Positions 22,194-64,000 of a stretch of 64,000 nucleotides of DNA are shown here, piece after piece; the stretch's first letter is position 1; each line of letters starts with the position of its first letter. Source of the stretch: Mumia xiangluensis (GTDB lineage: Bacteria; Actinomycetota; Actinomycetes; Propionibacteriales; Nocardioidaceae); assembly GCF_010994095.1 (NCBI RefSeq), contig NZ_WJYO01000006.1:62001-126000 (forward strand), written 5' to 3'. Both the position numbers and the translations under genes were made by a program. Under the pieces are notes generated by a model. It did no database searches and had not been told where the DNA came from. It saw only the letters and a program-made list of their open reading frames with translations.

Positions 22194-22196
22194 CGG

Positions 22197-27793: not shown

Positions 27794-27863
27794 TTGAGGT
27801 TGAGGGTCGCTCCGGCGAGTCGCGTCGGATGTCGTTGACCACCTGGGGGAGCAGACCTACCGT
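27794..27863 (+). promoter_or_regulatory. Promoter region of the MerR gene with tandem TTGAGG hexamers
   Basis: Two adjoining TTGAGG hexamers (27794-27805) lie upstream of a good promoter: TTGACC at 27835-27840, 17-base spacer, TACCGT at 27858-27863. The hexamers resemble half-sites used by MerR/SoxR-type regulators, so FtsR or the MerR product itself may bind here (inference). Confidence 0.5.
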
Positions 27864-27901
27864 GAACGGGCAAGACAGACGGTGTTGAGACGGAGGCTTC
27901 G

Positions 27902-48261: not shown

Positions 48262-48270
48262 CGCGGGGGC

Positions 48271-48840: not shown

Positions 48841-48969
48841 CGGGCCTCCGATCGCGACGAGGGGACAGGCGCTCAGGATCGCTGCCCGGCGGTGCGTCCG
48901 CAAGGCGTCGATGAGTCCCGCGCGCGGATGCGGTCGTACGAGCAGACCGACTCCCACCGGAGGTGCACC

Positions 48970-49317: not shown

Positions 49318-49326
49318 GGCGGTGGC

Positions 49327-49830
49327 TCACTTCGGCGCCCATCCGAACATCTCTGCCGCGGGGAGGGTCGCGCCGTCGAGTCGGCCGAGCGCGTCGACGA
49401 TCCGGCGTTCCTCCCAGCGAAGGTGCGACTCGAGCACGGAGGCGAGGCCGGCGACCTCGCCGCGGAGGCGTTCGTGGGCTGAGTGATCGGCATCCGCGGC
49501 CTCGGACGCCAGGTGCTCGATCCGCCCGAGAAGGTGAGCCACCAACGTGTGGTCGTGCTCCAGCTCGGCGAGCACGGGTGCCAGCTCGGGAACGACCGCG
49601 GCGAGCGCTGGGAAGGCGGTGCGGTCCTCGCTCGAGTGGTGCTGCGTGACGGCGGTGCAGAACGCGAGGCAGTGCTGGCGGAGCGAGCGGGGGAGCAGGG
49701 GAGCGGCGCTGTCGGAATCGGGAGAGTCGAAGGCGTCGACGAGTCGGTCGAGGTGGGTCCGCAGCTCGTCGTGCACCGCGACGAGGGCGGTCCCGAGAGC
49801 GAGGGCGCGGTCGGATTCTTGGGAAGGCAT
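49327..49830 (-). CDS. Hemerythrin HHE-domain protein
   Basis: A 167-residue four-helix protein with putative di-iron ligands: His in ALVAVHDELRTHLDRL, HHSSED, EHDHTLVAHLL and HLRWEERRI. Such proteins bind oxygen or protect iron centres; also used as sensors. Start ATG at 49830 opens the domain. Tail-to-tail with the SnoaL-like gene, head-to-head with the hydrolase gene. Confidence 0.85.
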   Translation of the reverse strand: MPSQESDRALALGTALVAVHDELRTHLDRLVDAFDSPDSDSAAPLLPRSLRQHCLAFCTAVTQHHSSEDRTAFPALAAVVPELAPVLAELEHDHTLVAHLLGRIEHLASEAADADHSAHERLRGEVAGLASVLESHLRWEERRIVDALGRLDGATLPAAEMFGWAPK

Positions 49831-49891
49831 AGGCGGCAAGTCTCGACGGCCTGACGGGACGAGGGCAAGCCGCGCTGGGAGACTCGTGCCC

Positions 49892-50734
49892 ATGGGCTCC
49901 TTCACCGCGTTCGACGGGACCTCGCTCGCCTTCCACGCGTCGGGCAACGGTGACCCGCTGGTCTGCGTCCCGGGCGGCCCCATGCTGGACTCCGAGTACC
50001 TCGGCGACCTCGGTGGGCTCGCCACGCACCGACAGCTGATCCTCCTCGACCCGCGAGGGACCGGGGCGTCGGCGGTTCCCGATGATCCGGCCTCGTACCG
50101 CTGCGACCGTCAGGTCGACGACGTCGAGGCGCTCCGCGAGCATCTTGAGCTCGAGCGGCTCGACCTTCTCGGGCACTCGGCCGGAGCGAATGTGGCCGTA
50201 CGCTACGCGGAGCGCCATCCCGGACGCGTCGACCGGCTCCTCCTGATCACGCCGAGCACCATGGCGCTCGGTGTCACGGTCTCAGCGGCGCAGCGGGTGC
50301 AGACGGCGCGTCTGCGGCAGGGCGAGCCGTGGTTCGCCGAGGCGTTCCGTGCGCTCGAGGACGTGCTGGCCGGCACGGCGGGGCCAGATCCGCGCCACGC
50401 CGTCGAGCCGTTCTGGCACGGGCGCTGGGATGCTGCGGCCCAGGCTCACCACGCTGCGCAGGGGCAGCGACGCGCTGCCGCCGACGTCGTCGACGCGTTC
50501 GTGGCCGACGGGGCGTTCGCACCACGAGCCACACGTACGGCGCTGGCCTCGTTCGACCGCCCTGTCCTCGTGCTCGCCGGAGAGGTCGACCTGAACTCCC
50601 CGCCATCGGCGATGCGGGACGTCGCCGCAGTCTTCCCCGGCTCACGTCTGGTGGTGCAGCCCGGGGCGGGGCACTACCCGTGGCTGGACGACGCGAACGC
50701 CTTCGTCGCGACCGTGGAGGCGTTCCTCAGCTGA
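49892..50734 (+). CDS. Alpha/beta hydrolase (proline iminopeptidase-like)
   Basis: A 280-residue alpha/beta hydrolase: oxyanion motif CVPGGPMLDSEYLG, LLDPRGTGAS, nucleophile elbow LLGHSAGANVA (Ser near residue 95), Asp in VLAGEVDLNSPP and His in PGAGHYPWLDD. The PGGPG-like start resembles proline iminopeptidases. The 3' end overlaps the GNAT remnant on the other strand by eight bases. GAGACT ends seven bases before the ATG, possibly leaderless. Confidence 0.82.
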   Translation: MGSFTAFDGTSLAFHASGNGDPLVCVPGGPMLDSEYLGDLGGLATHRQLILLDPRGTGASAVPDDPASYRCDRQVDDVEALREHLELERLDLLGHSAGANVAVRYAERHPGRVDRLLLITPSTMALGVTVSAAQRVQTARLRQGEPWFAEAFRALEDVLAGTAGPDPRHAVEPFWHGRWDAAAQAHHAAQGQRRAAADVVDAFVADGAFAPRATRTALASFDRPVLVLAGEVDLNSPPSAMRDVAAVFPGSRLVVQPGAGHYPWLDDANAFVATVEAFLS

Positions 50735-51023
50735 GGGTCTGCTCGGCGGCCAGACGGGCGTGAACGTGCATGTCGTGCCCCCCGTCGGCGTGCAGGGCGG
50801 CCGAGCGCCGCGTCCCCTCGAGCGGGAACCCCGCATGGGTCGCGACGCGGCACGAGGCGGGGTTCGCGGTCGAGTGCTCGATCTCGAGCCGGTGGAAGCC
50901 GACGTCGTGGAGCAGCCGTGACGCCGCGGCGCGTACGGCGCGGGTGGCGACGCCACGTCCTCGCGCCGAGGCGAGCGCAGAAACGTCGATCGGTCGCCAC
51001 GGGCGGAACGTGAGCTCGTCCAC
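50727..51023 (-). pseudogene. GNAT acetyltransferase remnant with internal deletion (RimJ-like)
   Basis: The 98-residue frame begins like a RimJ-type acetyltransferase (VDELTFRPWRPIDVSALAS) and then jumps directly to the acetyl-CoA site (ARGRGVATRAVRAAASRLLHDVG, then NPASCRVATHAGFPLEGTRR). About 60-80 residues that normally lie between these blocks, including the central beta-strands, are missing while the frame is kept. It is probably a deleted, non-functional gene; a small functional fragment is less likely. Overlaps the hydrolase gene tail by eight bases. Confidence 0.65.
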
Positions 51024-51083
51024 AGTGATGGTGGGTTTCGAAGCCGTCGGGCGCGAGCGTCGTGAGCGCCCTACCCTGAACCG

Positions 51084-51428
51084 ATGGGGACCGTCGACGA
51101 CTACGTGTCCGAGCTCGAGGAGCCGCGCCGCACGGTGATCGCTGCCTTGTACGCCGCGGCGGCCGAAGCCGTCCCTGAGGCGGAGCAGGGCAAGGGGTAC
51201 GGGATGCCGGCGCTCGTCTACCGCGGCAAGCCGCTCGTGAGCGTGATGGCGACGAAGAAGCACCTGTCGCTGTTCCCGTTCAGCAGCGACGTCGTGGCGC
51301 AGTTCGAGAAGGATCTCGACGGCTTCGACACGGCGAAGGGGACGATCCGGTTCCAGGAGGAGGAGCCGCTCCCGACGGGCCTGGCCGCGCGGATCGTCGC
51401 TGCCCGACGGGCACAGATCGACGGCTGA
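51084..51428 (+). CDS. DUF1801 protein (YdhG-like)
   Basis: A 114-residue DUF1801 protein: VDDYVSELEEPRRTVIAALYA, KGYGMPALVYRGKPLVSVMATKKHLSLFPF and IRFQEEEPLP are the family blocks. This form resembles the YdhG/frataxin-like iron chaperone type more than the 47836 paralogue. TACCCT ends six bases before the ATG, so the transcript is likely leaderless. Confidence 0.83.
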   Translation: MGTVDDYVSELEEPRRTVIAALYAAAAEAVPEAEQGKGYGMPALVYRGKPLVSVMATKKHLSLFPFSSDVVAQFEKDLDGFDTAKGTIRFQEEEPLPTGLAARIVAARRAQIDG

Positions 51429-51444
51429 CGCCCGCCTGCGCAGG

Positions 51445-51897
51445 TCAGTGGACGGGCGCCACCAGGCCGCCGACCACGTCGACGAGGGTCTTGAGCTCCG
51501 GCACCGCGCGGGCGTCCTCCAGGGTGCGTTCGAGCACCTCGTCGTGGACGGGCCGCGCCTTCTCGAGGAGCGCTCGCCCTTGTGGTGTCAGCTCGGTGTA
51601 GATGCCGCGACGGTCGTCGGCGCACAGGATCCGCGTGAGGATGCCGCGGTCCTCGAGCCGGTTGACGAGGCGGGTGGTCGCGGAGGGGGAGAGGGCCGCG
51701 GCGCGGGAGAGCTGCTGCATCCTCATGTGCCAGCCGTCCTGCCGGCCGAGGGCGTCCATCACGGTGAACTCCACGACGGAGAGACCCACCTGCGCGCTGA
51801 GCTGACGCTCGAGCTCGGTCTCGATCAGAGCGTGGAGCGACGCCAGCGTGCGCCAGCCCTGGGACCGGACCTCGACGGCGTCGTCGGAGATGCCCAT
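51445..51897 (-). CDS. MarR-family transcriptional regulator
   Basis: A 150-residue MarR repressor with winged helix (MQQLSRAAALSPSATTRLVNRLEDRGILTR, then CADDRRGIYTELTPQG wing) and flanking dimerisation helices. GAGGTGG lies upstream of the ATG at 51897. Divergent from the MFS/aldo-keto reductase operon, whose expression it probably represses through palindromes at 51918-51973. Ligand unknown. Confidence 0.87.
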   Translation of the reverse strand: MGISDDAVEVRSQGWRTLASLHALIETELERQLSAQVGLSVVEFTVMDALGRQDGWHMRMQQLSRAAALSPSATTRLVNRLEDRGILTRILCADDRRGIYTELTPQGRALLEKARPVHDEVLERTLEDARAVPELKTLVDVVGGLVAPVH

Positions 51898-51917
51898 GTG
51901 TGCCACCTCACCTAGAT

Positions 51918-51973
51918 AGTTGCTTGCGCGGCCTATTGCTGCGTGCAATCGTCAATAGTGCGCGTGTGCAACT
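51918..51973. promoter_or_regulatory. Nested inverted repeats, probable MarR operator
   Basis: Three concentric or overlapping inverted repeats lie between marR and the MFS gene: ATTGC-TGCGT-GCAAT (51935-51949), CTATTG...CAATAG (51933-51958) and AGTTGC...GCAACT (51918-51973). The first has the size and symmetry of MarR sites. Confidence 0.65.
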
Positions 51974-52019
51974 ACCAGCGTACGCGGTCCATACCGGCTC
52001 CACCAGCAAGGAATCAGAG

Positions 52020-53237
52020 ATGCCTGCAGGACTGATCGCGCTCGCCCTGGGCGGGTTCGGCATCGGCCTCACGGAGTTCGTCATCATGGGCCTGCTGCCC
52101 GAGGTCGCCACCGACTTCGGAGTCAGCGAGGCGGCGGCAGGATGGCTCATCACGGGCTACGCGTTGAGCGTCGTCGTGGGGGCGCTGGGCCTGACCGCCG
52201 CCACGACGCGTCTACCGCGCAGGCGCGTGCTGCTCGGGCTGCTCGTGCTGTTCGTCGCCGGGAACATGACGTCGGCTCTCGCCCCGTCGTACGAGGTGAT
52301 GCTTGCAGGGCGCGTCATCGCCGCCTTGTGCCACGGGGCGTTCTTCGGGATCGGCGCGGTCGTCGCGGCCAGCTTCGTGCCCGCAGAGAAGAAGGCGGGC
52401 GCCGTCGCGATCATGTTCACCGGCCTCACCGCCGCGAACGTCTTCGGTGTGCCGTTCGGGACCTTCCTCGGCCAGCAGCTCGGGTGGCGCTCGACCTTCT
52501 GGGCGATCACGGTGATCGGCGTGGTCGCCTTCCTGGGCGTCCTCGCCCTCGTGCCGGACGACCGCAGAAGTCATGTGCCCACGCGCCTGCGGGAGGAGTT
52601 CCACGCCTTCCGCAGCGGCCAGGTGTGGTTGTCGCTCGTCGTCACCGTCCTGGGGTTCGGCGGCATGTTCGGCGCTTTCACCTACATCGCATACACCCTG
52701 ACGGAGGTCTCAGGTTTCGCATCCTCGTCCGTACCGTGGCTCCTGGTGCTGTTCGGGCTCGGGCTCCTGGTCGGCAACGTCCTCGGCGGACGGTTCGCCG
52801 ACAGGGCGATCGACGCGACCCTGCTGGTCGTGCTCGCCGGGCTGGTCGCCGTGCTCGTGGCGTTCGCGCTGACGGCGCAGAGCCGGACCGCGACGACGGT
52901 CACGGTGTTTCTCATGGGTGGCCTCGGGTTCGCCACCGTCCCGGGCCTCCAGACCCGGATCATGCGGTACGCGGTGCACGCGCCGTCGCTCGCCTCCGGG
53001 GCCAACATCGCGGCGTTCAATCTCGGCAACGCGCTGGGGGCGTGGATCGGCGGCGTGACGATCACCGCCGGGCTCGGATACACGTCGCCGATCTGGGCGG
53101 GGGCCGTGATCACGTCCCTCGCGCTGATCGTCATGGCGGGCGCGGCGGCCGGAGCGCGTCGTACCGTCCGACAGGAGAAGCTCGCCCCACTACACCCGAC
53201 GTCTTCCCACCAGCTCTCGACAGAAGGAATCGCATGA
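52020..53237 (+). CDS. MFS transporter (DHA1, AraJ-like)
   Basis: A 405-residue major facilitator with 12 helices, of the sugar-efflux/drug-export DHA1 branch: GGFGIGLTEFVIMGLLPEVATDFGVS (residues 10-35, given here as the first helix) is typical of AraJ/Cml-type exporters. AAGGAA precedes the ATG. It overlaps the aldo/keto reductase gene by ATGA. Likely MarR-controlled export of a toxic small molecule, with the reductase modifying it (inference). Confidence 0.87.
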   Translation: MPAGLIALALGGFGIGLTEFVIMGLLPEVATDFGVSEAAAGWLITGYALSVVVGALGLTAATTRLPRRRVLLGLLVLFVAGNMTSALAPSYEVMLAGRVIAALCHGAFFGIGAVVAASFVPAEKKAGAVAIMFTGLTAANVFGVPFGTFLGQQLGWRSTFWAITVIGVVAFLGVLALVPDDRRSHVPTRLREEFHAFRSGQVWLSLVVTVLGFGGMFGAFTYIAYTLTEVSGFASSSVPWLLVLFGLGLLVGNVLGGRFADRAIDATLLVVLAGLVAVLVAFALTAQSRTATTVTVFLMGGLGFATVPGLQTRIMRYAVHAPSLASGANIAAFNLGNALGAWIGGVTITAGLGYTSPIWAGAVITSLALIVMAGAAAGARRTVRQEKLAPLHPTSSHQLSTEGIA

Positions 53238-54058
53238 CCATCCCCACCGTGACTCTCAACGACGGCGTCACCATGCCGCAGATCGGATTCGGCGTCTTCC
53301 AGGTCCCCGGCGCGGAGACGACGGCAGCGGTCAGCTCGGCCCTGGAGGCCGGCTACCGCAGCATCGACACGGCCGCGGCCTACCGCAACGAGACGGGCGT
53401 CGGTCAGGCACTCGCGCAGTCCGGGCTCGCGCGGGACGACCTCTTCGTCACCACGAAGCTGTGGAACACCGACCAGGGGCGCGACAACGCCCGCCCCGCC
53501 CTCGAGGCCAGTCTGGAGCGCCTCGGCCTCGACCGGGTCGACCTCTACCTGATCCACTGGCCGGCCCCGGGCCGCGGCCTGTTCGCCGAGACATGGGAGG
53601 CGTTCGAGGAGCTGCGCGCCTCGGGCCTCACGCGGTCGATCGGTGTCTCGAACTTCCTCCCCGAGCATCTCGACGCCATCATCGCCCTCGGCGGTCCGGT
53701 GCCCGCGGTGAACCAGATCGAGGTGCACCCCGAGCTCCAGCAGCGCAGCGTCCAGGACGCCGGCGCCCTGCACGGGATCGTGACCGAGGCGTGGAGCCCG
53801 CTCGCACAGGCAGGGGTGCTCGGCGACCCGGTCGTCGCCGAGATCGCCGCGGCACACGGCCGGACCCCCGCGCAGGTGGTGCTGCGCTGGCACCTCGAGC
53901 AGGGCCGCGTCGTGATCCCGAAGTCCGTCACGCCGTCGCGGATCGCGGAGAATCTCGCCATCACCGACTTCACGCTGACCTCGGACGAGGTGACGCGCAT
54001 CGACGGTCTGGAGGCCGGTCGGCGCACGGGGCCGGACCCGGCGACCTTCAACGGCTGA
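53234..54058 (+). CDS. Aldo/keto reductase (AKR5-like)
   Basis: NADPH-dependent reductase of 274 residues. Catalytic Asp/Tyr in SIDTAAAYRNE, Lys in VTTKLWN, His in YLIHWP; cofactor loop IPKSVTPSRIAEN. Similar to 2,5-diketo-gluconate reductases. Translationally coupled to the MFS gene, so probably under MarR control. Confidence 0.9.
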   Translation: MTIPTVTLNDGVTMPQIGFGVFQVPGAETTAAVSSALEAGYRSIDTAAAYRNETGVGQALAQSGLARDDLFVTTKLWNTDQGRDNARPALEASLERLGLDRVDLYLIHWPAPGRGLFAETWEAFEELRASGLTRSIGVSNFLPEHLDAIIALGGPVPAVNQIEVHPELQQRSVQDAGALHGIVTEAWSPLAQAGVLGDPVVAEIAAAHGRTPAQVVLRWHLEQGRVVIPKSVTPSRIAENLAITDFTLTSDEVTRIDGLEAGRRTGPDPATFNG

Positions 54059-54061
54059 GCG

Positions 54062-54511
54062 TCAGCCGATCCCGTGCGGGGTCTCAGGCGGCTCCGGGGG
54101 AACCGGCGGGCCGGGCGGTCGGACGCGGCGGCGGCGTACCTTCAGGGCTGCCGCGCCGGCCAGAGCGGTGCCGGCGAGGATCGTGGCCACGATCGCGGGA
54201 TTGAGCCGCCAACGGCTCCCAGGTGTGTCCGTCGTGGCGGCGCACTCGTGCAACGGGAACCGGTCGCCCCCGTGGAACACGGTCGTGAGCTCGGCCGAGA
54301 CGTACGCGAAGGAGCCCGCCGGAAGGCCGAAGGTGGACAGCGTGCGGTACCACCGGCCGTTGGACCGGTCGATCCAGCAGGTGACGTTCGCGTGCGAGCC
54401 CGGTCCGTCGGGTGGTTCGAGGTGGGCGATGACGTGTCGCGCGCCGTCCCAGACCGGTACACGGTGCGGCACGGTCGTCACCACCGCGGGGTAGTCGGCA
54501 TCGAGTCCCAT
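54062..54511 (-). CDS. Membrane-anchored protein of unknown function
   Basis: Unrecognised 149-residue protein. The first 105 residues are soluble (WDGARHVIAHLEPPDGPG, two cysteines at CWID and HECAA), one membrane helix follows (PAIVATILAGTALAGAAALK) and a Pro-rich tail ends the chain. No signal peptide, so the soluble part is probably cytoplasmic. Tail-to-tail with the aldo/keto reductase gene. Confidence 0.6.
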   Translation of the reverse strand: MGLDADYPAVVTTVPHRVPVWDGARHVIAHLEPPDGPGSHANVTCWIDRSNGRWYRTLSTFGLPAGSFAYVSAELTTVFHGGDRFPLHECAATTDTPGSRWRLNPAIVATILAGTALAGAAALKVRRRRVRPPGPPVPPEPPETPHGIG

Positions 54512-54584
54512 CTGCCGACTGTAGACCGGGTCGGGTCCCGGGATACCCGCGCTTGCGTGGGCATCCCCTCGTGCTGACGGGTCG

Positions 54585-55412
54585 TCAGACGGCGCGGAGC
54601 GAACCGGCTCCGCGCCTGCGCAGCGACTCGAGCGCGGTCGTCGTCGCGTCGTCCGCCGGCACCAGCACCATGATCTGCTGCCCGTCAGCGACGGGGAGGT
54701 CGAGGATCTCGCAGTCGAGGCGCAGCTCGCCTGCCGACGGATGGGTCCAGCGCTGCGCCTGGCGCGCCAGCGAGGCATGGCGCTCGAGTCGGCGGGTGAA
54801 CGCGTCACCGACCGTGACGGTCATCTCCGAGACGAACGCCCGGGAGCGGTCGGTCGACGGGCCGCGCCAGAGCTCGGCCACGCGCTCGTCGGCGATCCGG
54901 TCCCACTCGGGGAAGGCGCGTCGGGCTCGCTCGTCGGTGAACACGTATCGCGTGAGGTTCGGTTCGTGCGTGTCGAGCACGCCGAGCGGGCGTACGAGCT
55001 GGTCGAAACCCGTGGTCAGAGCGAGGATGTCGCCGATCCGGTTGACGACGGCGGCGGCGCCCGGCTCGAGCTGGTCGAGGATCGCCTGGACCGCAGGTCG
55101 GACCGAGGTCCGGTGCGGGACCACGCTGACGCACTCGCCGGAGGTCGCCTTCGTGAGGTTGCGCAGGTGTTCACGGTCGTCGACGTCGAGGCGGAGGGCC
55201 TCGGCGAGAGCGTGCACGACCTGGATGGACGGGTTGCGGTCGCGACCCTGCTCGATGCGGGTGAGGTACTCGACGCTGATGCCGGCCAGCGCGGCCAGCT
55301 CCATGCGGCGAAGGCCGGGGGCCCGGCGCCTGCCGACCGGGGTGAGACCGAGGGACTCGGGCGAGGTGGCGTCGCGACGTGCGCGGACGAAGTCGCCGAG
55401 GGGCGTGCTCAT
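54585..55412 (-). CDS. XRE-family regulator with MmyB-like domain
   Basis: A 275-residue regulator: helix-turn-helix (RRMELAALAGISVEYLTRIEQGR, residues 35-58) plus an MmyB-like PAS-type ligand domain (residues 100-260) that in relatives binds fatty acids. GLTPVGRRRAPGLRR is the family's conserved leader. Divergent from an FMN reductase gene with a perfect 17-base palindrome between, so it likely regulates that gene and itself. Confidence 0.87.
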   Translation of the reverse strand: MSTPLGDFVRARRDATSPESLGLTPVGRRRAPGLRRMELAALAGISVEYLTRIEQGRDRNPSIQVVHALAEALRLDVDDREHLRNLTKATSGECVSVVPHRTSVRPAVQAILDQLEPGAAAVVNRIGDILALTTGFDQLVRPLGVLDTHEPNLTRYVFTDERARRAFPEWDRIADERVAELWRGPSTDRSRAFVSEMTVTVGDAFTRRLERHASLARQAQRWTHPSAGELRLDCEILDLPVADGQQIMVLVPADDATTTALESLRRRGAGSLRAV

Positions 55413-55457
55413 GCGCCCACAGTACGGCGTGGCGTGCAGGTTCCACGGCGGCGAGCG

Positions 55458-55474
55458 TGGCCCTGCCAGGGCCA
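55458..55474. promoter_or_regulatory. Perfect palindrome between regulator and FMN reductase
   Basis: TGGCCCTG-C-CAGGGCCA: eight-base arms around a single base, in the middle of the 111-base divergent intergenic region. Best read as the operator of the MmyB-type regulator. Confidence 0.55.
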
Positions 55475-55523
55475 GCCTGAGCGCGGTCTGGTTGCATCCG
55501 CCGACGCGTTCCAGGCTGGCTGC

Positions 55524-56123
55524 ATGAGCGAGAAGAGCAGACTTGTCATCCTCGTCGGAAGCGTCCGAGAGGGGCGATTCGGCCCCGTCGTCGCGTCGTG
55601 GGCCGCCGAGCAGGCACGGGAGCACGGGGGATTCGACGTGGACGTCGTCGACCTGGCGGAGATCGACGTCCCGCTGGCGCTGCCGGCGGAGTCCCCGAAG
55701 CTGGCCGGCGACGCCTACCCGCGCCCAGCCGGGATGTCCGCGCTGACGGAGCGCCTGGCGGCCGCCGACGCGTTCGTCATCGTGACCCCTGAGTACAACC
55801 ACAGCTATCCCGCGTCGCTCAAGGCAGCGATCGACTGGCACTTCAGCCAGTGGACGGCCAAGCCGGTCGCGTTCGTCAGCTATGGGGGTGCGGCCGGTGG
55901 ACGTCACGCCGTGCTGCACCTCGAGAACGTCCTCACCGAGCTGCACGCGGTCACGATCCGGGACGGGCTGGCGTTCCCGAACTACTACCTGAACTTCGAC
56001 CTCGAGGCCGGTCTGCCGCACGACGAGCAGGCGGCCGTGTACGCCAAGGGGATGTTCGCGCAGCTCGACTGGTGGGCCACCGCCCTGAAGGACGCCCGAC
56101 AGCGGGTGCCCTACCCGGGGTGA
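55524..56123 (+). CDS. NADPH-dependent FMN reductase
   Basis: Flavodoxin-fold reductase of 199 residues: FMN-phosphate loop LVGSVREGRFGP (residues 10-21) and VIVTPEYNHSYPASLKAAIDW near residue 85. Reduces quinones, azo compounds or supplies reduced flavin. CAGGCT ends six bases before the ATG, suggesting a leaderless start. Converges with the ECF41 sigma gene. Confidence 0.9.
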   Translation: MSEKSRLVILVGSVREGRFGPVVASWAAEQAREHGGFDVDVVDLAEIDVPLALPAESPKLAGDAYPRPAGMSALTERLAAADAFVIVTPEYNHSYPASLKAAIDWHFSQWTAKPVAFVSYGGAAGGRHAVLHLENVLTELHAVTIRDGLAFPNYYLNFDLEAGLPHDEQAAVYAKGMFAQLDWWATALKDARQRVPYPG

Positions 56124-56146
56124 CAGTCCCCGCGCGCGTGGTCTGG

Positions 56147-57019
56147 CTAGCGCACGAGCAGTGCCTCCCGGTCGAGCCGCGCGAGCTTCTCGGGGTTCCA
56201 GATCCCGTACGCCTTCGTGATCCGCCCGTCCTCGACGGTGAGGCTGATCGCGCCGCTGAGCACCCCGCCGAGCTCGAGCCGGATGCCAGGCGCACCGTTG
56301 AGCCAGATCGGCTCGCCGGTGAGCGGGGCGGGTCGCCGGGAGTGCGCGATCGTGAAGAACCTCGCGAACTTCTCCGCGCCGATGATGGGCTTGCGCGCCG
56401 CCTGCACGAGGCCACCGCCGTCGGAGACCACGACGACGTCGGGTGCGAGGACGTCCATCAGTGCCTGGACGTCGCCCGTGACGAACGCGGCGAGGAACCG
56501 TTCGACGACCTCCTGCTGCTCGCGGCGCCCGACCTCCATGCGCGGGCGCCGCGCGGCGACGTGCTCGCGCGCACGGTGCGCGATCTGCCGTACGGACGCC
56601 GAGGTCCTGCCGACCGCCTCGGCGATCTCGTCGTACGGCGTCTCGAAGACCTCGCGGAGCACGAAGACCGCCCGTTCGACAGGGCCGAGCGTCTCCAGGA
56701 CGGTGAGCATCGCGATCGAGACGCTCTCGGCGAGCTCGACGTCATCGGCGACGTCGGGGGTGGTCAGCAGCGGCTCGGGCAGCCACTCGCCGACGTAGTC
56801 CTCGCGTCGACGCGCCAGCGTACGGAGGCGGTTGAGCGCCAGGCGGGTGACGATGCGGACGAGGTACGCCCGTGGGCTCGCGATGTCGGACTGGTCGACG
56901 TCCGCCCACCTCAGCCAGGTCTCCTGCACCACGTCCTCGGCGTCGGCGGCGGAGCCGAGCATCTCGTACGCGACCGTGAAGAGGAGACTGCGGTGGGTGA
57001 CGAACGGGTCGTCGCTCAT
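56147..57019 (-). CDS. ECF41-type RNA polymerase sigma factor (SigJ-like)
   Basis: Extracytoplasmic-function sigma factor of 290 residues with region 2 (LLFTVAYEMLGSAADAEDVVQETWLRW), region 4 (VERAVFVLREVFETPYDEIAEAVGRTSASVRQIAHRARE) and the C-terminal SnoaL-like extension that replaces an anti-sigma factor. The extension carries both diagnostic ECF41 motifs: DGGG (near residue 200) and NPEKL near residue 278. It overlaps the carboxymuconolactone decarboxylase gene by ATGA, the known ECF41 genetic partner. Confidence 0.93.
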   Translation of the reverse strand: MSDDPFVTHRSLLFTVAYEMLGSAADAEDVVQETWLRWADVDQSDIASPRAYLVRIVTRLALNRLRTLARRREDYVGEWLPEPLLTTPDVADDVELAESVSIAMLTVLETLGPVERAVFVLREVFETPYDEIAEAVGRTSASVRQIAHRAREHVAARRPRMEVGRREQQEVVERFLAAFVTGDVQALMDVLAPDVVVVSDGGGLVQAARKPIIGAEKFARFFTIAHSRRPAPLTGEPIWLNGAPGIRLELGGVLSGAISLTVEDGRITKAYGIWNPEKLARLDREALLVR

Positions 57020-57609
57020 GCGGGCGACACTACGTCCTGGACGGGCTGGGGGAGCGGGGGCAGACCGCAGGACTCGGCGAACTCCTCCGAGCGGATGCCG
57101 AGGGCCACGTTCGCGCGGGCGGTGAGGTTCATCGTCCCGACCCTGCCGGTGAGCTCGATCAGCCCCGCGGGGCCGAGCTCGTCCAGGAGTGCAGCCGACA
57201 TCTCGTCGGTGACGGCGAGCGGGGTCTGGCACATCGCCTCGGCGTACTCCATCACCCGGCGTTCGAGGGGCGTGAACACATCGGACTCGCGCCACCGCGG
57301 GACCTCGCGAGCCTTGGCCTCGTCGAGTCCCTTGTTGTGGCTCATGAAGTAGTGCAGGTCGAGGCAGAAGCTGCACCCGATCGCGCCGGCCGCGGCCATG
57401 CTGGCGTACGAGGCGAGCTGCGGGTCGAGGGCGTCCCACTTCTCGACCTTGCGCCCGAATCCCATCATGTCCTTGAACGCGGTGCGGTGGTGCCACATCA
57501 CCCCCGTCGACTCCGGCACCTTTCCGAGCATCCTGCGGGCCATCGTCTTGAGCAGCGCCCCGTACAGCCCGGTGATCTCGGTCTCGGGGACGCGTGTCGT
57601 GCTGGTCAT
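57016..57609 (-). CDS. Carboxymuconolactone decarboxylase/AhpD-family protein
   Basis: A 197-residue CMD-fold protein with the AhpD-type redox centre CSFC (Cys79, Cys82) and a nearby histidine (LDLHYF). These proteins act as peroxidase-like reductants. It precedes and overlaps the ECF41 sigma gene, the standard arrangement in which the sigma factor drives its partner. AGGAGGAG lies upstream of the ATG, and an ECF41-type promoter lies at 57644-57670. Confidence 0.88.
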   Translation of the reverse strand: MTSTTRVPETEITGLYGALLKTMARRMLGKVPESTGVMWHHRTAFKDMMGFGRKVEKWDALDPQLASYASMAAAGAIGCSFCLDLHYFMSHNKGLDEAKAREVPRWRESDVFTPLERRVMEYAEAMCQTPLAVTDEMSAALLDELGPAGLIELTGRVGTMNLTARANVALGIRSEEFAESCGLPPLPQPVQDVVSPA

Positions 57610-57643
57610 GTCTCCTCCTGAGGTGGCTTGCTCTCGGCATGAA

Positions 57644-57670
57644 GACACCGGTCGCGCGACTCCTGTGACA
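57644..57670 (-). promoter_or_regulatory. Predicted ECF41 promoter
   Basis: On the minus strand TGTCACA (57670-57664), 16-base spacer, TGTC (57647-57644). The published ECF41 consensus is TGTCACA-N16-CGTC, so only one -10 base differs. Thirty-four bases separate it from the decarboxylase ATG. Confidence 0.75.
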
Positions 57671-57698
57671 CCAGGAGCGCCGCCTTCTCCGATCAATG

Positions 57699-57759
57699 CG
57701 CAACCGATGGTTGCGATTGGACGCGGGGTGGGCTAGCCTCATACGCAACCAAAGGTTGC
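57699..57759 (+). promoter_or_regulatory. SRPBCC-arsR promoter with two identical-arm operators
   Basis: Two perfect inverted repeats, GCAACC-GAT-GGTTGC (core of 57699-57715, arms extend to CGCAACC/GGTTGCG) and GCAACC-AAA-GGTTGC (57745-57759), centres 45 bases apart. Between them a promoter fits: TTGCGA at 57711-57716, 17-base spacer, TAGCCT at 57734-57739. Operator 1 covers the -35 and operator 2 abuts the ribosome site. Confidence 0.8.
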
Positions 57760-57770
57760 AGGAGGATGTC

Positions 57771-58232
57771 ATGGAGTTCGGAACCATCGAGCGCGAGATC
57801 TACGTCGACGCGTCGCCCGAGATCGTCTTCGAGGTCGTGAGCAGTCCCGACCATGTGAAGCAGTGGTGGCCGGACGACGCGGCGTACGAGGTCAGGCCCG
57901 GCTCGCAGGGGGAGATCGTCTTCGGTGACCGCGACACCGACGGGACCGTCGTCGCCTTCGCCGTCCTGGAGGCGGACCCGCCTCGGACGTTCTCGTTCCG
58001 ATGGACGCACCCGGCCGACGAGGACGCGGGGGAGGGCAACTCGTTGCTCGTCACGTTCGACCTCACGCCGAAGGGCGGCGGCACGCTGCTCAAGATGACC
58101 GAGACCGGCTTCCGCGAGATGGGCTGGGAGGCCGCCGTCCTCGAGCAGCAGTACCACGAGCACGTCACGGGTTGGGACTTCTACCTCGCGCGGATCGCGC
58201 CGTACGTGGCGACCCTGGAGACGCGCCGATGA
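57771..58232 (+). CDS. SRPBCC (AHSA1-like) domain protein
   Basis: A 153-residue START/Bet v1-fold protein with hydrophobic ligand pocket: REIYVDASPEIVFEVVSSPDHVKQWWPDDA and the C-terminal WDFYLARIAPYVA helix. GGAGG five bases before the ATG. Overlaps the ArsR gene by ATGA; this SRPBCC-ArsR pairing is common in actinobacteria and may sense or bind a small hydrophobic compound. Confidence 0.85.
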   Translation: MEFGTIEREIYVDASPEIVFEVVSSPDHVKQWWPDDAAYEVRPGSQGEIVFGDRDTDGTVVAFAVLEADPPRTFSFRWTHPADEDAGEGNSLLVTFDLTPKGGGTLLKMTETGFREMGWEAAVLEQQYHEHVTGWDFYLARIAPYVATLETRR

Positions 58233-58579
58233 GCCTCGCGGTTGCCGAGGACGTCGACGACGAGCTCTGGTCGGCGGTCGGCGACCCCACGCGTCGCCGG
58301 ATGCTCGACCTGTTGCTGGCGTCCGGGCCAGGCACGGCAACGTCCTTGAGCGACCAGCTCCCCGTCACGCGACAGGCGGTGGCCAAGCACCTGCAGGTCC
58401 TGGACCACGCCGGACTCGTGCACGGGACGACGGCCGGGCGCGAGCGTCGTTACCAGGTCGATGAGGCGCAGCTCGCCCGCGCCGTCGCTCAGCTCGCCTC
58501 GGTCGGGGCCAGCTGGGAAGCACGACTGCAGCGCATCAAGCGGATCGCCGAGGCGATCCAACGCGACCGGGAGGTCTGA
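58229..58579 (+). CDS. ArsR-family transcriptional regulator
   Basis: A 116-residue ArsR/SmtB winged helix: LWSAVGDPTRRRMLDLLLASGP, then SDQLPVTRQAVAKHLQVLDHAGLV recognition helix and RERRYQVD wing. No CxC metal motif, so it is not a classical metal sensor; ligand may be bound with its SRPBCC partner. Probably represses the twin-operator promoter at 57699-57759. Confidence 0.9.
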   Translation: MSLAVAEDVDDELWSAVGDPTRRRMLDLLLASGPGTATSLSDQLPVTRQAVAKHLQVLDHAGLVHGTTAGRERRYQVDEAQLARAVAQLASVGASWEARLQRIKRIAEAIQRDREV

Positions 58580-58663
58580 ACCCGGTCGTCACCCACGAAC
58601 AGCCCACCGCACACCGTGGTGGGACGGATCAGTGCGCCCTGCGCACCGACGAGAGGAAAGAAG

Positions 58664-59110
58664 ATGGTGGACATCTTGCACAGGGTCGGAGTCGAGACGA
58701 CGTCGCCCGAGAAGGTGTACGACGCGCTCGCGACGATCGACGGGCTCGCCGGCTGGTGGACCGAGGACACGACGGGGAAGCCCGACGACGTCGGGGGAGT
58801 GGTCGAGTTCCGCTTCCCGCTCGGCGGCTTCGACATGGAGGTCCAGGACCTCCGGTCGTCCGAGCACGTCGGATGGAAGGTCGTCGACGGGCCGGAGGAG
58901 TGGGTCGGGACGACGATCGACTGGGACCTCCGTCAGGAGGGCGACTACACGATCCTGATGTTCGCGCACCGCGGCTGGAAGGAGCCGGTCGAGTTCATGC
59001 ACCACTGCAGCACCAAGTGGGCGACGTACATCATGAGCCTCAAGTCGCTCGTCGAGACCGGTGCGGGCGCGCCCTGCCCCCACGACGTGCACATCGCAGA
59101 CCAGGACTGA
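58664..59110 (+). CDS. SRPBCC domain protein
   Basis: A second Bet v1-fold protein, 148 residues: HRVGVETTSPEKVYDALATIDGLAGWWTED, WDLRQEGDYTILMFAHRGW and SLKSLVETGAG. GAGAGG precedes the ATG; it lies 84 bases after arsR and may be in the same transcript. Different from the first SRPBCC protein in the pocket-lining residues. Confidence 0.83.
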   Translation: MVDILHRVGVETTSPEKVYDALATIDGLAGWWTEDTTGKPDDVGGVVEFRFPLGGFDMEVQDLRSSEHVGWKVVDGPEEWVGTTIDWDLRQEGDYTILMFAHRGWKEPVEFMHHCSTKWATYIMSLKSLVETGAGAPCPHDVHIADQD

Positions 59111-59183
59111 GGGGCTGGCTCGGACCCGGGTGGTCAGCACCGTGAGCCGTCGCCCTGGCGCCGGGGCGGCGGCTCGACGCGCG

Positions 59184-60398
59184 TCATGACGAGCCGCTCC
59201 GATCGAGGGCCCGCACACGGGCGGCCTGGCGTACGAGGTGGTCGCGCTCCGCGACGTTCGTGGCCAGCCGCGCCGCCTCCGCGTACGACGAGGCGGCCGC
59301 GGGCAGGTCTCCTTCGAGCTCGTGCAGATGTCCGCGCACGGCGTGCCATCGGTGGCGGTCTCCGATCACCTCGCGCACTCGATCCGTCTCGCGCAGACCG
59401 GCGGCTCCACCGAGGACGTGGCCGACCGCGATCGCGCGGCCGAGCACGGCGGCGGGGTGCTCGCGGACTGGGTCGTCGTGCAGCGCGACGAGATCGTCGT
59501 ACCACGCGAGGATCTGCGGCCAGTCGGTCTCCTCGGCGGACGCGGCGTCGTCGTGCAGGGCCGAGATCGCAGCCTCGACCTGGTAGCGGCCCGGGGGAGC
59601 GGCGTCCGTCCGCACCGCGAGAGTCGACTGCAGGACGCGAACCCCTTCAGCGATCTCGCGGACGTCCCACAGGCTGCGGTCCTGCCGGTCGAGCGTCACG
59701 ATGCTGCCGTCGGGGGCGATCCTCGCGGGCAGCCGAGCGTGGTTGAGCAGCATCAGTGCGAGCAGTCCGCGTGCCTCGGGCTCGTCGGTGGCGAGCGTGA
59801 GCTGGCGGGTGAGCCGGATAGCCTCGGTGGCCAGGTCGACCCGGTCGGTGTGGCCGGTGGTGTAGACGAGGTACAGCACGCGCAGCACGACGGCGAGGTC
59901 ACCGGGCTGGTCGAGCCGACGCCCGCGCAGGCTGCGCTTCGCGCGGCTGATGCGCTGCGCCATCGTCGCCTCCGGGACGTAGAAGGCATCGGCGATCTCG
60001 CGCGTCGTGAGGCCGCCCACGGCACGGAGCGTCAGCGCCACCTGCGAGGCGGCGGACAGGTCCGGGTGGCAGCAGCAGAAGAGCACGAAGAGCGTGTCGT
60101 CCCCAGCCTCGGTGCCGCCAGGCCGCGGCTGCGCGTACGTGGTCTCCTCGCGACGGAGACGGGCGGCCTCGCTACGACGGGCGTCCACGAGGCGCCGCAC
60201 CGACACGGTCGTCAGCCACGCGAACGGGTCCCGCGGAGGGTGCTCGGGCCAGACCCGCGACGCTTCCACGAGTGCCTCCTGGAGCGCGTCCTCCGCGGTG
60301 TCGAAGTCCTCGCCGCGGCGGACGAGGCCGGCGAGCACCCGGGGGATGAGGGCGCGTAGCGCCCCCTCATCCAACCCTCGTGCAGGCTCGTCTCGCAC
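59184..60398 (-). CDS. ECF42-type RNA polymerase sigma factor
   Basis: A 404-residue sigma factor with region 2 (DFDTAEDALQEALVEASRVW), region 4 (LTLRAVGGLTTREIADAFYVPEATMAQRISRAKRSL) and a long C-terminal helical/TPR extension (residues 190-404, including LALMLLNHARLPAR). This domain order and its neighbour, a YCII/DGPF protein, identify ECF42. GTG start with GGAGGA eight bases upstream, four bases after the partner's stop. Confidence 0.92.
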   Translation of the reverse strand: MRDEPARGLDEGALRALIPRVLAGLVRRGEDFDTAEDALQEALVEASRVWPEHPPRDPFAWLTTVSVRRLVDARRSEAARLRREETTYAQPRPGGTEAGDDTLFVLFCCCHPDLSAASQVALTLRAVGGLTTREIADAFYVPEATMAQRISRAKRSLRGRRLDQPGDLAVVLRVLYLVYTTGHTDRVDLATEAIRLTRQLTLATDEPEARGLLALMLLNHARLPARIAPDGSIVTLDRQDRSLWDVREIAEGVRVLQSTLAVRTDAAPPGRYQVEAAISALHDDAASAEETDWPQILAWYDDLVALHDDPVREHPAAVLGRAIAVGHVLGGAAGLRETDRVREVIGDRHRWHAVRGHLHELEGDLPAAASSYAEAARLATNVAERDHLVRQAARVRALDRSGSS

Positions 60399-60402
60399 CC
60401 GG

Positions 60403-60813
60403 TCAGTCCTCCGCCGGAGGGAGGGTCATGACCTCCCGTACGTCGATCCACTCGTACAGCGGGTCACCACCAGGGCCGGGCTCGGAAGAGACGTACGCCG
60501 CGACCTCGAGCGCACGGTCGTGAGACTCGACGTCGATCATGAACCAGCCGGCGACGAGGTCGCTGGTCTCCGGGTGCGGACCGTCCGTGGTGACGGGCGC
60601 TGCGTCCGGGCCGCCGTAGCGCACCCAGGTGCGGCTCGGCACGAGCGCCTGGGCGTCGACGAGCTCACCGTTCTTCTGCAGCATGTCGTTCACGTGCCAC
60701 TGGAACGCCATGTGCGCCTCGACGTCCTCGGGCGCCCACTGGTCCATCGGCGGAACAGGACGGTGCGGCTCCGGGCCGCCGCTGTAGTGCTTGAGGAGCA
60801 GGTACTTCGGCAT
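60403..60813 (-). CDS. YCII/DGPF-domain protein
   Basis: A 136-residue ferredoxin-like YCII protein with the DGP motif in TTDGPHPETSDLVAGWF, the expected target and partner of ECF42 sigma factors. YLLLKHYSGGPEPHRPVPP is the family start. Co-transcribed with the sigma factor gene; a TGTCGA element lies upstream at 60885-60890. Confidence 0.9.
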   Translation of the reverse strand: MPKYLLLKHYSGGPEPHRPVPPMDQWAPEDVEAHMAFQWHVNDMLQKNGELVDAQALVPSRTWVRYGGPDAAPVTTDGPHPETSDLVAGWFMIDVESHDRALEVAAYVSSEPGPGGDPLYEWIDVREVMTLPPAED

Positions 60814-60867
60814 GGTGACCTCCTGGTCTCGTAGGCCGCGTTGTGCGAGCCCTTCACCTGGAGAGCG

Positions 60868-60890
60868 GAGCGGGTGCGCGGTTCTCGACA
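60868..60890 (-). promoter_or_regulatory. Predicted ECF42 promoter (-35 element)
   Basis: TGTCGA on the minus strand (60890-60885), the conserved -35 of ECF42 promoters, about 72 bases before the YCII ATG. After 17 bases CGCTC occurs where CGA/TC is expected, so the -10 is only approximate. Confidence 0.55.
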
Positions 60891-61034
60891 TCGTGGGCTC
60901 GTCGTGAGCGTAAGACCTCGACGCGGGGTAGTGGTGTGGTCAGGTGCCGACCCGGCAGCAGACCGTGTGACCGATGAGTTATCTGCGCGGCGGTGGTCTG
61001 TACGCCGAGTACCGAGTCGCGGGAGGCTGACGCC

Positions 61035-61598
61035 GTGCGGAAACTGACCTTTGCCATGAATCTGAGCCTGGACGGCTACACCGCCGCGCCCGGGGACGAC
61101 CTCGGCTGGAGCGTGCCGAGCGACGAGCTGTTCCAGTGGTGGTCCGACCGGGTCGGCGGGACGGGCCTGGCGCTGTACGGGCGCAAGGTGTGGGAGGAGA
61201 TGAGCTCCCACTGGCCGACCGCGGACCAGCAGCCCGGCGTCACACTGGCGGAGATCGAGTACGCCCGTCGCTGGCGGGCCATGCCGAAGGTGGTGTTCTC
61301 CTCGACGAGCAGGCCGGTCGACTGGAACACCCGCTTGGTCACCGGCGACGCTGTCAGCGAGATCACCCGGCTCAAGGCCGAGGATGGCGGGCCCATGGAC
61401 ATCGTCGGCGCGACACTCGCCGCGGCGGCCATGCGGGCCGGACTGATCGACGAGTACGTGCTGGTCACCGCGCCGGTCCTGGTGGGCGGCGGCACGCCGT
61501 TCTTCACGGCCCTGGACAGCTGGGTGAACCTGAACCTGGTGGAGACGCGGAGGTTTCCCGAGGGCGTGCTCCTGACCAGGTACGAGACCACGCGTTGA
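61035..61598 (+). CDS. Dihydrofolate reductase-like (RibD C-terminal) protein
   Basis: A 187-residue RibD_C reductase, third paralogue in the window: LTFAMNLSLDGYTAAPGDDLGW, LALYGRKVWEEMSSHWP and GGPMDIVGATLAAAAMRAGLIDEY. GGGAGG lies nine bases before the GTG. Divergent from the ECF42 unit. Substrate unknown. Confidence 0.83.
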   Translation: MRKLTFAMNLSLDGYTAAPGDDLGWSVPSDELFQWWSDRVGGTGLALYGRKVWEEMSSHWPTADQQPGVTLAEIEYARRWRAMPKVVFSSTSRPVDWNTRLVTGDAVSEITRLKAEDGGPMDIVGATLAAAAMRAGLIDEYVLVTAPVLVGGGTPFFTALDSWVNLNLVETRRFPEGVLLTRYETTR

Positions 61599-61627
61599 AG
61601 ACCCGAACGCGGACCGAAAGGAACGTG

Positions 61628-61655
61628 GATTGACATAATGTCGCTTATCGGCGCG
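61628..61655. other. dif: Chromosome dimer resolution site dif
   Basis: Read on the minus strand, the 28 bases form a XerC arm CGCGCCGATAA, centre GCGACA and XerD arm TTATGTCAATC. The CGATAA/TTATGTCAA arms and 11-6-11 layout match bacterial dif sites, specifically the actinobacterial form. It lies in a non-coding gap between the DHFR-like and MetF-like genes. XerC/XerD with FtsK would act here to separate chromosome dimers. Confidence 0.82.
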
Positions 61656-61663
61656 CCAATTCT

Positions 61664-62584
61664 CTAGCGACGAAGCTCCCGGTCGAGCTGCTGGGCAAGC
61701 TTCACCGAGGCCTCGATCTCGGCGAGACGGATCGAGACGCTCTCGACGTTGATCCCGAACGGGACCTCCATGCGTCGGCAGTATCGGATCAGCTCGCTTG
61801 CTGCTGCAAGCGACTGCTCGTACGACATCTGAAGCGTGTCCTCTGCGTGGCGCAGGTCGTTCTGGAGCCACCGAGGCACGTCGACGCCGAGCCACCGCAG
61901 GAACTCCAACGTCTTGACGGAGCCGCACACCGAGAACGTGAACACGATCGGCACGGGCTCGAGGCCACGTGCGGCGCACTCGTAGCGGTAGTCGGACACG
62001 AGGTCCTTCGCCGCGTTGACGTCGTAGACGACCTGCGTGACGAAGAACGAGCACCCGGCTTGCTGCTTCGCGATCAGGCGCAGATGCTCTTCGCCCCGGC
62101 GCGTGTGTCGCTCTGGAATGGCGACGCCCCCGAGCTGTACGTCGGGTCGTGTCTGCGCCCACAGCTCCTGGGCACGAACCAGCGAGGTCGCTGACTGCTT
62201 GTGCCGCGACGAGGCGCCGACGAACACCGTCAATGCCTGGTCGGCGTCCTGGGACTCCAGCCACGCCTGGAGACCGCTCTCCTGGTACTTGCTGACTGCT
62301 CGGTACACCACGACTGGTGCGTGCCAGTCGTTCAGGTGCTGGGCCCGGAACGTGGCTGGGTCCATCGTGGGCAGGAAGGGAAAGGGTCGCTCGTCCGGGT
62401 TGCGATCGCTCTCGTCGTCGATGTCGTAGAGGACGAGACCATCGACCCGCAGCGGGGCCAGGCGCTTCTGGGTCACGTCGGCGATCTCCTGCGCCCGCTC
62501 GGTAGAGACGGTGAGTCGAGGGGGCGTCAGTGCGAAGAGCAGGAACTCGCTCCCCCGCGCCGCGATTCGTTGCGCCAAGCTCAT
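61664..62584 (-). CDS. Methylenetetrahydrofolate reductase-family protein
   Basis: A 306-residue MetF-type TIM barrel: GGVAIPERH, GCSFFVTQVVYDV and the flavin/folate motif PFGINVESVS near residue 283. The N-terminal FxFFPP block is altered to FALTPPRL, so it may be a MetF relative with changed substrate rather than the housekeeping enzyme. TAACTT ends six bases before the ATG (leaderless). Its stop lies nine bases from dif. Confidence 0.75.
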   Translation of the reverse strand: MSLAQRIAARGSEFLLFALTPPRLTVSTERAQEIADVTQKRLAPLRVDGLVLYDIDDESDRNPDERPFPFLPTMDPATFRAQHLNDWHAPVVVYRAVSKYQESGLQAWLESQDADQALTVFVGASSRHKQSATSLVRAQELWAQTRPDVQLGGVAIPERHTRRGEEHLRLIAKQQAGCSFFVTQVVYDVNAAKDLVSDYRYECAARGLEPVPIVFTFSVCGSVKTLEFLRWLGVDVPRWLQNDLRHAEDTLQMSYEQSLAAASELIRYCRRMEVPFGINVESVSIRLAEIEASVKLAQQLDRELRR

Positions 62585-62605
62585 GGGGCGAAGTTAGCTG
62601 ACGGA

Positions 62606-63289
62606 TCAGGTGTCGCGTCGGGCGACGAGCACGACGAGCGGGCCCTGCTGGCCCTCAGCCGGCAGCCGGAGATCCGCAACGACGCGCAACCCGACGTCGT
62701 CGAGAAGCTCAGTCAGCCGTTCCGGTCGCCACTGGTACGTCGTCCACGTCACCGGGACGCCACCGTACGCCTCGGTCCGAGCCACGTCGTCGTCTCCGAC
62801 GTGAGTCGCGATGATCGCGTGGCCGCCGGGCACCAGGGCGTCGTGGAAGGTCGCCAGGACACCCGCCAAGACGTCGCGCGGCAGATTGAAGAGCGACCAC
62901 CATCCGAGGATGCCTCCGAGCGAAGCCGGCTCGAGGTCGAGCTCGGTGGCCGATCTGACGGCGAACCGGCACCCGGGGTGAAGGCGTGCGGCGTGCTCGA
63001 TCATGCGAGGTGACAGGTCCACGCCCGAGACGTCGAGGCCGCGCTCCTGCAGGTAGGCCGTGACGGTCCCCGGACCGCAGCCGACGTCGAGGACAGGGCC
63101 GAGACCGTGGACCGAGTCGGCGAACGTGTCGACAGCGGCCCGCAGCCACGGCGTGGTGCGGATGTCACCCATGCCCGTGGTGGCGAGCAGGTGGACGTAG
63201 CTGTCCGCGACCCGGTCGTACGAGTCACGGACGACATCGAGATCGGTCGGTCGTGCGGGCGCAGGCCGGGTGGGAGGAGGAAGGCTCAC
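62606..63289 (-). CDS. SAM-dependent methyltransferase
   Basis: Class I methyltransferase of 227 residues: SAM motif I VLDVGCGPGTVTAYL (near residue 60), GVDLSPRMIEHAARLHPG motif and FHDALVPGGHAIIATHVG post motif. GTG start with TAGGGT seven bases upstream, leaderless type. Substrate unknown. Divergent from a second methyltransferase gene. Confidence 0.83.
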   Translation of the reverse strand: MSLPPPTRPAPARPTDLDVVRDSYDRVADSYVHLLATTGMGDIRTTPWLRAAVDTFADSVHGLGPVLDVGCGPGTVTAYLQERGLDVSGVDLSPRMIEHAARLHPGCRFAVRSATELDLEPASLGGILGWWSLFNLPRDVLAGVLATFHDALVPGGHAIIATHVGDDDVARTEAYGGVPVTWTTYQWRPERLTELLDDVGLRVVADLRLPAEGQQGPLVVLVARRDT

Positions 63290-63379
63290 CGGACCGACCC
63301 TAGAGGCAGGCACCGTCTCTTTCTGACCTGCTCGTCTCCCGCGGGCAGCCTGCTCGCCTCTGCCAGAATCGACGCCACC

Positions 63380-64000
63380 ATGGACCTTCCCCGGATCTTC
63401 ACCATCCGCGAGAGCGGCTTTCGCATCCACAACCCGCTGACTCCTGCGAAGTACGCAGCGCTGGGCGAGGCGCTTCGCCTGGCACCCGGGACACGGGTAC
63501 TCGACCTGGCGAGCGGCTCCGGCGAGATGCTGTGCACCTGGGCGCGTGACCTGGGGTTCACCGGCCCCGGCGTGGACATCAGCACGGTGTTCACCGACGA
63601 GGCACGGGCCCGCGCTCACGAGCTCGGCGTCGCTGACCGGGTGGAGTTCGTCCACGGCGATGCCGCCGGCTACGTCGCGGACGAACCGGTCGACCTCGCC
63701 GCCTGTGTCGGGGCCAGCTGGATCGGCGACGGCATCGCCGGCACGGCTGACCTGCTCAGCCGCAGCCTCCGCCCGGGAGGCGTGATGCTGATCGGCGAGC
63801 CGTACTGGCGGCGGACTCCGCCGGACCAGGCCGCCGTGGAGGCCTGCCACGCCACGAGTCCCACCGACTTCCTGCCGCTCCCCGGGTTGATCGAGCAGTT
63901 CAGCGACCTCGGGTACGACGTCGTGGAGATGATGCTGGCCGATCAGGACAGCTGGGACCGGTACACCGCGGCGCAGTGGCTCAACCTCCGCCGCTGGCTC
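63380..64000 (+). CDS. SAM-dependent methyltransferase (cut by window end)
   Basis: Open frame from ATG at 63380 to the window edge without a stop, at least 207 residues. Motif I VLDLASGSGEMLCTWA near residue 40, GVDISTVFTDEAR and LRPGGVMLIGEPYW identify a class I methyltransferase. It is not a shadow: codon use is normal and the motifs are in order. The C terminus lies beyond the window. Confidence 0.8.
   Translation, partial: MDLPRIFTIRESGFRIHNPLTPAKYAALGEALRLAPGTRVLDLASGSGEMLCTWARDLGFTGPGVDISTVFTDEARARAHELGVADRVEFVHGDAAGYVADEPVDLAACVGASWIGDGIAGTADLLSRSLRPGGVMLIGEPYWRRTPPDQAAVEACHATSPTDFLPLPGLIEQFSDLGYDVVEMMLADQDSWDRYTAAQWLNLRRWL

Follow-up and report, generated by a model that had tools for sequence, protein, structure and literature searches.

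What is the 28-bp sequence at positions 61628–61655 of the stretch of Mumia xiangluensis DNA analysed here (64,000 nucleotides, hereafter the window)? Its layout is that of a site for the tyrosine recombinases XerC and XerD, and the question is whether it represents the dif site of the chromosome, a remnant of an inserted element, the dif of another replicon or a chance resemblance. As detailed below, the evidence indicates that it is almost certainly the dif of the chromosome in this actinobacterium.

The 28-bp site and its neighbourhood

The plus-strand letters of 61628–61655 are GATTGACATAATGTCGCTTATCGGCGCG, and the minus strand reads CGCGCCGATAA-GCGACA-TTATGTCAATC. In this minus-strand reading, a predicted XerC-binding arm (CGCGCCGATAA, 61645–61655) is followed by a 6-bp central region (GCGACA, or TGTCGC on the plus strand, 61639–61644) and by a predicted XerD-binding arm (TTATGTCAATC, 61628–61638), the assignment of the two arms being an assumption that we take over from the convention for Escherichia coli. 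The arms mirror each other at only 4 of 11 positions, namely the inner ATAA/TTAT. Compared with the predicted dif of Frankia alni, given in passages of PMC3025954 as CACGCCGATAATGCACATTATGTCAAGT, the site is identical at 22 of 28 bases (10/11 in the XerC arm, 3/6 in the centre and 9/11 in the XerD arm), while the runner-up scores were 18 on the same contig, C6, and 19 in 620 kb of contig C1. The first-pass annotation, made from the letters of the window, had described an 11-6-11 layout with CGATAA and TTATGTCAA arms in a short non-coding gap and had taken it for a probable dif marking the terminus at the right end of the window. Both the layout and the gap are present, and the reading is supported by the match to F. 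alni and by a reversal of motif polarity within about 3 kb of the site, described below.

The gap measures 65 bp (61599–61663, as set by the ends of the open reading frames) and separates two convergent genes. On its left lies a plus-strand gene with a RibD C-terminal domain (60993–61598, exact start not settled; PF01872, E 3.4e-18), and on its right a divergent methylenetetrahydrofolate reductase-like (MTHFR-like) gene on the minus strand (61664–62584; PF02219, E 5.4e-7; TIGR00676, E 1.1e-8, far under the cut-off). When the flanks were compared at 42 dif-bearing loci, using about 1.5 kb on each side where the contig allowed, the left flanking protein was matched at 4 of them (L001, which is the window locus itself, L012, L013 and, weakly, L017) and the right one at L001 only; therefore the neighbours of dif are not conserved in that set.

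Gene order at a larger scale was compared with a same-genus relative assembled as a single 4.65-Mb contig (G005), using alignments of more than 300 bases. Contig C6 is broadly collinear with it over most of the 100 kb on each side of dif, with the order broken between about −7.5 and +5 kb of the site; three short alignments run across dif with reversed orientation. This broken order is compatible with small-scale inversions and with turnover of genes near the terminus. Set against G005, a small plastic zone thus covers about 54100–64000 of the window and continues to ~5 kb past dif.

Position on the chromosome and polarity of GGGGGAG

With the window genome itself in 9 contigs, the arc between origin and dif was taken from relatives assembled in one contig. 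DnaA was sought in 71 genomes (19 + 52); of the 47 that were in one contig, 46 had a dif match. Between the best DnaA and the best dif of each, with 34 of the 46 chromosome lengths rounded to 0.1 Mb, the arc had a mean of 0.478 of the chromosome and a minimum of 0.417; it reached at least 0.45 in 42 relatives and at least 0.40 in all 46, where random placement would give 0.25. The strand of dif was the same as that of dnaA in 25 of these relatives and opposite in 21, so that the relative orientation of the two is not fixed.

The cumulative GC skew, which the first-pass annotation expected to turn at the site, does so nearby when contig C6 (447,565 bases) is taken as a whole: its maximum falls at 132806 and dif starts at 123628, 9.2 kb away. 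Because this peak lies ~6.8 kb past the right end of the window, no turn is visible inside the window alone. On the origin side, the C1 stretch shows the opposite turn, a skew minimum at 621,729 with dnaA at 609,970. In 200-kb stretches from two relatives, the distance from GC-skew peak to dif was 0.8 kb (G005) and 72.8 kb (G018), and GC skew is a weak signal in these genomes. The AT skew over C6 has no turn at dif, its minimum being at 189823 and its maximum at 54253. It should be borne in mind that dif may differ from the point where replication terminates, as stated in a passage of PMC13342612.

A sharper transition appeared when octamers were counted relative to dif in C6, the top group being built on GGGGGAG. 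This heptamer occurs 131 times in the contig, with 38 copies on the plus strand to the left of dif, 93 on the minus strand to the right and no exception, and its polarity flips between −2035 and +922 bp of the site. It was the most polar among the 4327 heptamers with at least 60 copies in C6, and rearrangements of the same letters were less polar (GGGGAGG, 67:29; GGGAGGG, 48:35). Within the window, all 22 copies to the left of dif (7052–59599, the first starting at 7052 and the last at 59593) are on the plus strand, and the sole copy to its right (62550–62556) is on the minus strand; every one of them points toward dif. The motif behaves similarly in the two relatives: of the copies within 200 kb, 64 of 65 (G005) and 80 of 82 (G018) are directed at dif, and the three wrong-way copies lie 20.7, 31.8 and 82.0 kb from it, none within 20 kb.

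GGGGGAG is also denser on this side of the chromosome, where C6 has on average a copy every 3.4 kb, than near dnaA, where a stretch of 620 kb contains 49; its polarity is imperfect toward the origin, in the C1 stretch around dnaA. To the right of dnaA (G000 C1:612882–828816), 13 of 14 copies run opposite to what the mostly positive GC skew would lead one to expect, and beyond ~840 kb of the same contig 15 of 20 copies are on the plus strand. Possible causes of this odd orientation are an error in the assembly, an inverted segment or selection that is weak close to the origin.

Two motifs from other bacteria were tried as polar motifs in C6 and rejected. The E. coli KOPS, GGGNAGGG, was partly polar only (56 leading vs 22 lagging), and the Bacillus subtilis SRS, GAGAAGGG, was not polar (10 vs 16).

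A motif that turns without exception in 447.6 kb lends independent support to the terminus landmark. Replication forks would accordingly travel rightward over 1–61627 of the window, making the plus strand the leading one there, and would travel leftward on the far side of dif. The replication orientation that the first-pass annotation had wished to read from the site thus gains a second footing in the heptamer counts (22:0 plus over 1–61627, 1:0 minus after dif), and dif supplies the genes of the window with both a terminus landmark and a leading strand.

Recombination genes, copy number and alternative readings

The genome encodes the proteins that such a site would need. XerD is encoded on C6 itself (TIGR02225, 342.8 bits, over the equivalog cut-off of 329.6), between frames resembling alanine dehydrogenase and ParA, whereas the XerC homologue, on contig C5, has TIGR02224 as its best model with 313.2 bits, under the cut-off of 335.15, and adjoins a DprA-like frame (all these neighbours were named by eye). 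Contig C5 also carries an FtsK-gamma domain (E 7.4e-24). Tyrosine-recombinase domains were matched 11 times in the genome (10 over the cut-off); the four recombinases that were classed comprise XerD, the XerC homologue and two others that exceed no Xer-model cut-off. Several features by which a dif is recognized are found together: an 11-6-11 match, a single copy, a nearby turn of skew, converging polar motifs and genes for XerD, a XerC homologue and FtsK-gamma.

In E. coli, chromosome dimers are resolved by the FtsK–XerCD–dif system. By analogy, sister chromosomes of this actinobacterium that had fused into a dimer would be brought to order at the septum by FtsK pumping DNA toward dif, a movement probably guided by GGGGGAG-type polar motifs. 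FtsK would then contact XerD at dif in an FtsK-directed synapsis, and XerD followed by XerC would exchange strands across the 6-bp centre, yielding two monomers. XerCD recombination at 61628–61655 is accordingly given here as a predicted role, as judged from sequence. Likewise, GGGGGAG makes a good candidate for the sequence that guides FtsK in this clade.

The first-pass annotation anticipated exactly one copy of the site in the genome and regarded several dispersed copies as grounds for abandoning the dif reading. The assembly (4,622,342 bases in 9 contigs, 98.64% complete) yielded a single match to the 23-bp dif core at ≤3 mismatches, in keeping with that expectation, and in the window the degenerate pattern TTGACATAATGTNNNTTATCGGC matched once at ≤3 mismatches. 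The site is widespread among relatives. At the same threshold a dif pattern with a free centre matched in 377 of the 391 Propionibacteriales genomes searched vs 3 of 391 for a reversed control; by hand count, 14 genomes had no match, 330 had one and 47 had at least two, the second match in many cases carrying 3 mismatches. Exact matches to the free-centre pattern were present in 17 of 39 relatives, and the five same-genus relatives (G001–G005) have one dif match each, all with the TGTCGC centre and ≤1 mismatch to the search pattern. In a 1.6-Mb genome of the order (G251) the dif pattern was matched seven times on the forward strand at ≤3 mismatches. Another relative, G012, has two exact cores by contig ends (C13:446 and C56:19), which may reflect a break in the assembly or else an element inserted at this site.

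These data bear directly on the possibility that an integrative element using the Xer recombinases left an attachment scar (attL or attR) at this position, so that the 28-mer would not be a working chromosomal dif. Elements do target dif in Vibrio and Neisseria, according to passages of PMC5357621, and the few kilobases around the site are not the same in G005 as in the window genome. However, the 4.62-Mb assembly, 98.64% complete, yielded no second dif-like site at ≤3 mismatches, the next-best arm match in C6 has 5 of 18 arm bases wrong, and all five same-genus relatives share the core and its centre. In that same search, the second, partly degenerate dif flanking inserted DNA that marks an integrative element exploiting Xer (IMEX) was not found in the genome at ≤3 mismatches. 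The scar reading is therefore largely refuted and we consider it very improbable; the first-pass suggestion that the spot could serve as an integration target for Xer-using phages or plasmids found no counterpart in the window genome, where no such use was seen.

Much the same degree of improbability attaches to the idea that C6 is part of a large secondary replicon, a chromid, and that the site is the dif of this chromid and not that of the main chromosome. The unclosed state of the assembly, in 9 contigs, gives the idea some room, but no other dif was found at ≤3 mismatches in that 98.64% complete assembly, around dif the order of C6 is broadly that of the one-contig 4.65-Mb chromosome of G005, and C6 carries xerD. 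A chance AT-rich motif, or a promoter whose −35 box would be the TTGACA at 61630–61635, identical to the sigma-70 −35 consensus, can be dismissed as having next to no probability, since the TTGACATAATGTNNNTTATCGGC pattern matched none of 100 dinucleotide-preserving shuffles of the window at ≤3 mismatches, the site is conserved across the order, and the gap lies between convergent gene ends with no TATAAT-like box 17 bp downstream (by eye). We therefore retain the chromosomal dif reading. The finding is then an ordinary one with good support: it adds an example to a familiar class, set off by polarity of unusual clarity, and the presence of a dif is in itself expected biology.

Dif-like sites in relatives and comparison with known systems

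Sites resembling dif but bearing altered centres were sought in 341 genomes of the window's family with the pattern GACATAAVNNNNNTTATCGG, which keeps the window arms and requires that the first centre base is not T. It retrieved 15 sites in 12 genomes, the reversed control 0 in 341, and none of the sites was in the window genome or its five same-genus relatives. Some of the 15 are not accessory: the contigs that carry three of them measure 2.9 to 4.5 Mb, and G373 has no dif match other than its site. The remaining 12 are on contigs of 4.0 to 308 kb, sizes that are due in part to fragmented assemblies. A wider scan of contigs for altered centres returned at least 118 stretches, in which probable chromosomal dif sites of other genera are mixed with candidates, and was left out of the counts.

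Two of these genomes contain inverted pairs. On contig C7 of G091 (69,434 bases; L248 = 54000–69434), sites at 7173 and 11039 of L248 lie 3.9 kb apart with centres GATCTA (plus strand) and CGATCA (minus strand, one arm mismatch). A run of three genes (7212–10984; 603, 276 and 364 aa) fits closely between them; the first two proteins have no Pfam match, and the 364-aa one combines HTH and IrrE/M78 domains. Just outside the pair is a toxin-antitoxin-like gene pair with Xre/MbcA/ParS and RES domains. On contig C4 of G113 (L252 = 48000–61000), sites at 1247 and 6764, 5.5 kb apart, have the same two centres, GATCTA and CGATCA, with one arm mismatch each, and surround genes including DUF305 and DUF4396.

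Further groups of sites differ from these pairs in sharing one orientation. Contig C8 of G040 (168 kb; L249 = 12000–28000) has three, at 6889 and 8973 of L249 with a third at 49132 of the contig, whose centres are CGATGG, TCTAGG and GATAAG. A Cellulomonadaceae metagenome-assembled genome (JAIRQO010000006.1, L170) has three direct sites at 29, 3283 and 4686 with centre CAGGCA; their spacings of 3.3 and 1.4 kb could be those of tandem Xer-integrated elements, and the first interval holds a transposase-like frame (by eye). In a 6462-bp contig of Gordonia jacobaea (NZ_LDTZ01000031.1, L204), sites at 721 and 3692 have the centres CGTAGA and GGTAAA.

Viral records were also inspected. The dif pattern occurs in 17 IMG/VR stretches; beyond these 17 exact matches, allowing up to 3 mismatches added 10 more, spread over 6 of the records: two with 1 mismatch (G561 and G568) and eight with 3. 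Since the reversed control gave 4 matches on 3 of these records, the 3-mismatch matches mean little. The two 1-mismatch pairs are in L082 and L089, whose frames were read by eye; in L089 (IMG/VR 2529293221) dif at 6081 and a one-mismatch site at ~9936 share one orientation and are separated by 3.9 kb, and the interval holds three related frames that resemble surface proteins.

Acinetobacter plasmids are known for their pdif (dif) modules. It is conceivable, at odds that we would place a little short of even, that XerCD/dif chemistry serves a pdif-type module system on accessory DNA in the window's family, a proposal based on the arrangement of sites and genes. A search of 72,556 plasmid records retrieved relatives of the XRE-IrrE protein in 337, including 83 from Acinetobacter, which is weak support for the pdif reading given that the family is widespread. 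If the proposal holds, Actinobacteria would have a mobile-module system like that of Acinetobacter plasmids, and the dif-like module pairs in relatives merit separate study; no such module was seen in the window genome itself. The titles and abstract openings that the literature survey covered included no report of pdif-like modules in Actinobacteria; the XER modules of Arthrobacter, according to a passage of PMC6305408, encode their own recombinases.

With respect to known systems, the dif of F. alni, which stands at the start of the actinobacterial dif profile, has the same 11-6-11 layout as the window site and shares 22 of 28 bases with it, but its centre is TGCACA where the window has GCGACA, and the outer arm ends are altered. 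The polar motif is not new either, being in print as a corynebacterial architecture imparting sequence. As described in passages of PMC2830990 and PMC3219685, which credit Hendrickson and Lawrence for such sequences, dif was located in Corynebacterium aurimucosum and C. variabile by means of (T/C)GGGGGAG and G(A/T/C)GGGGGA, and the polarity of these GGGGGAG-containing octamers flips at dif as it does in the window genome. What sets the latter apart from Corynebacterium is a heptamer with 0 exceptions among 131 copies in the 447.6 kb around dif, and more toward the origin. The greater density of GGGGGAG in C6 than around dnaA resembles the rise toward the terminus in abundance and strand bias of architecture sequences that is reported in a passage of PMC5993296. 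Finally, the pairs in G091 and G113 are like the Acinetobacter pdif modules in being inverted pairs of altered-centre dif-like sites around genes, and unlike them in having actinobacterial arms.
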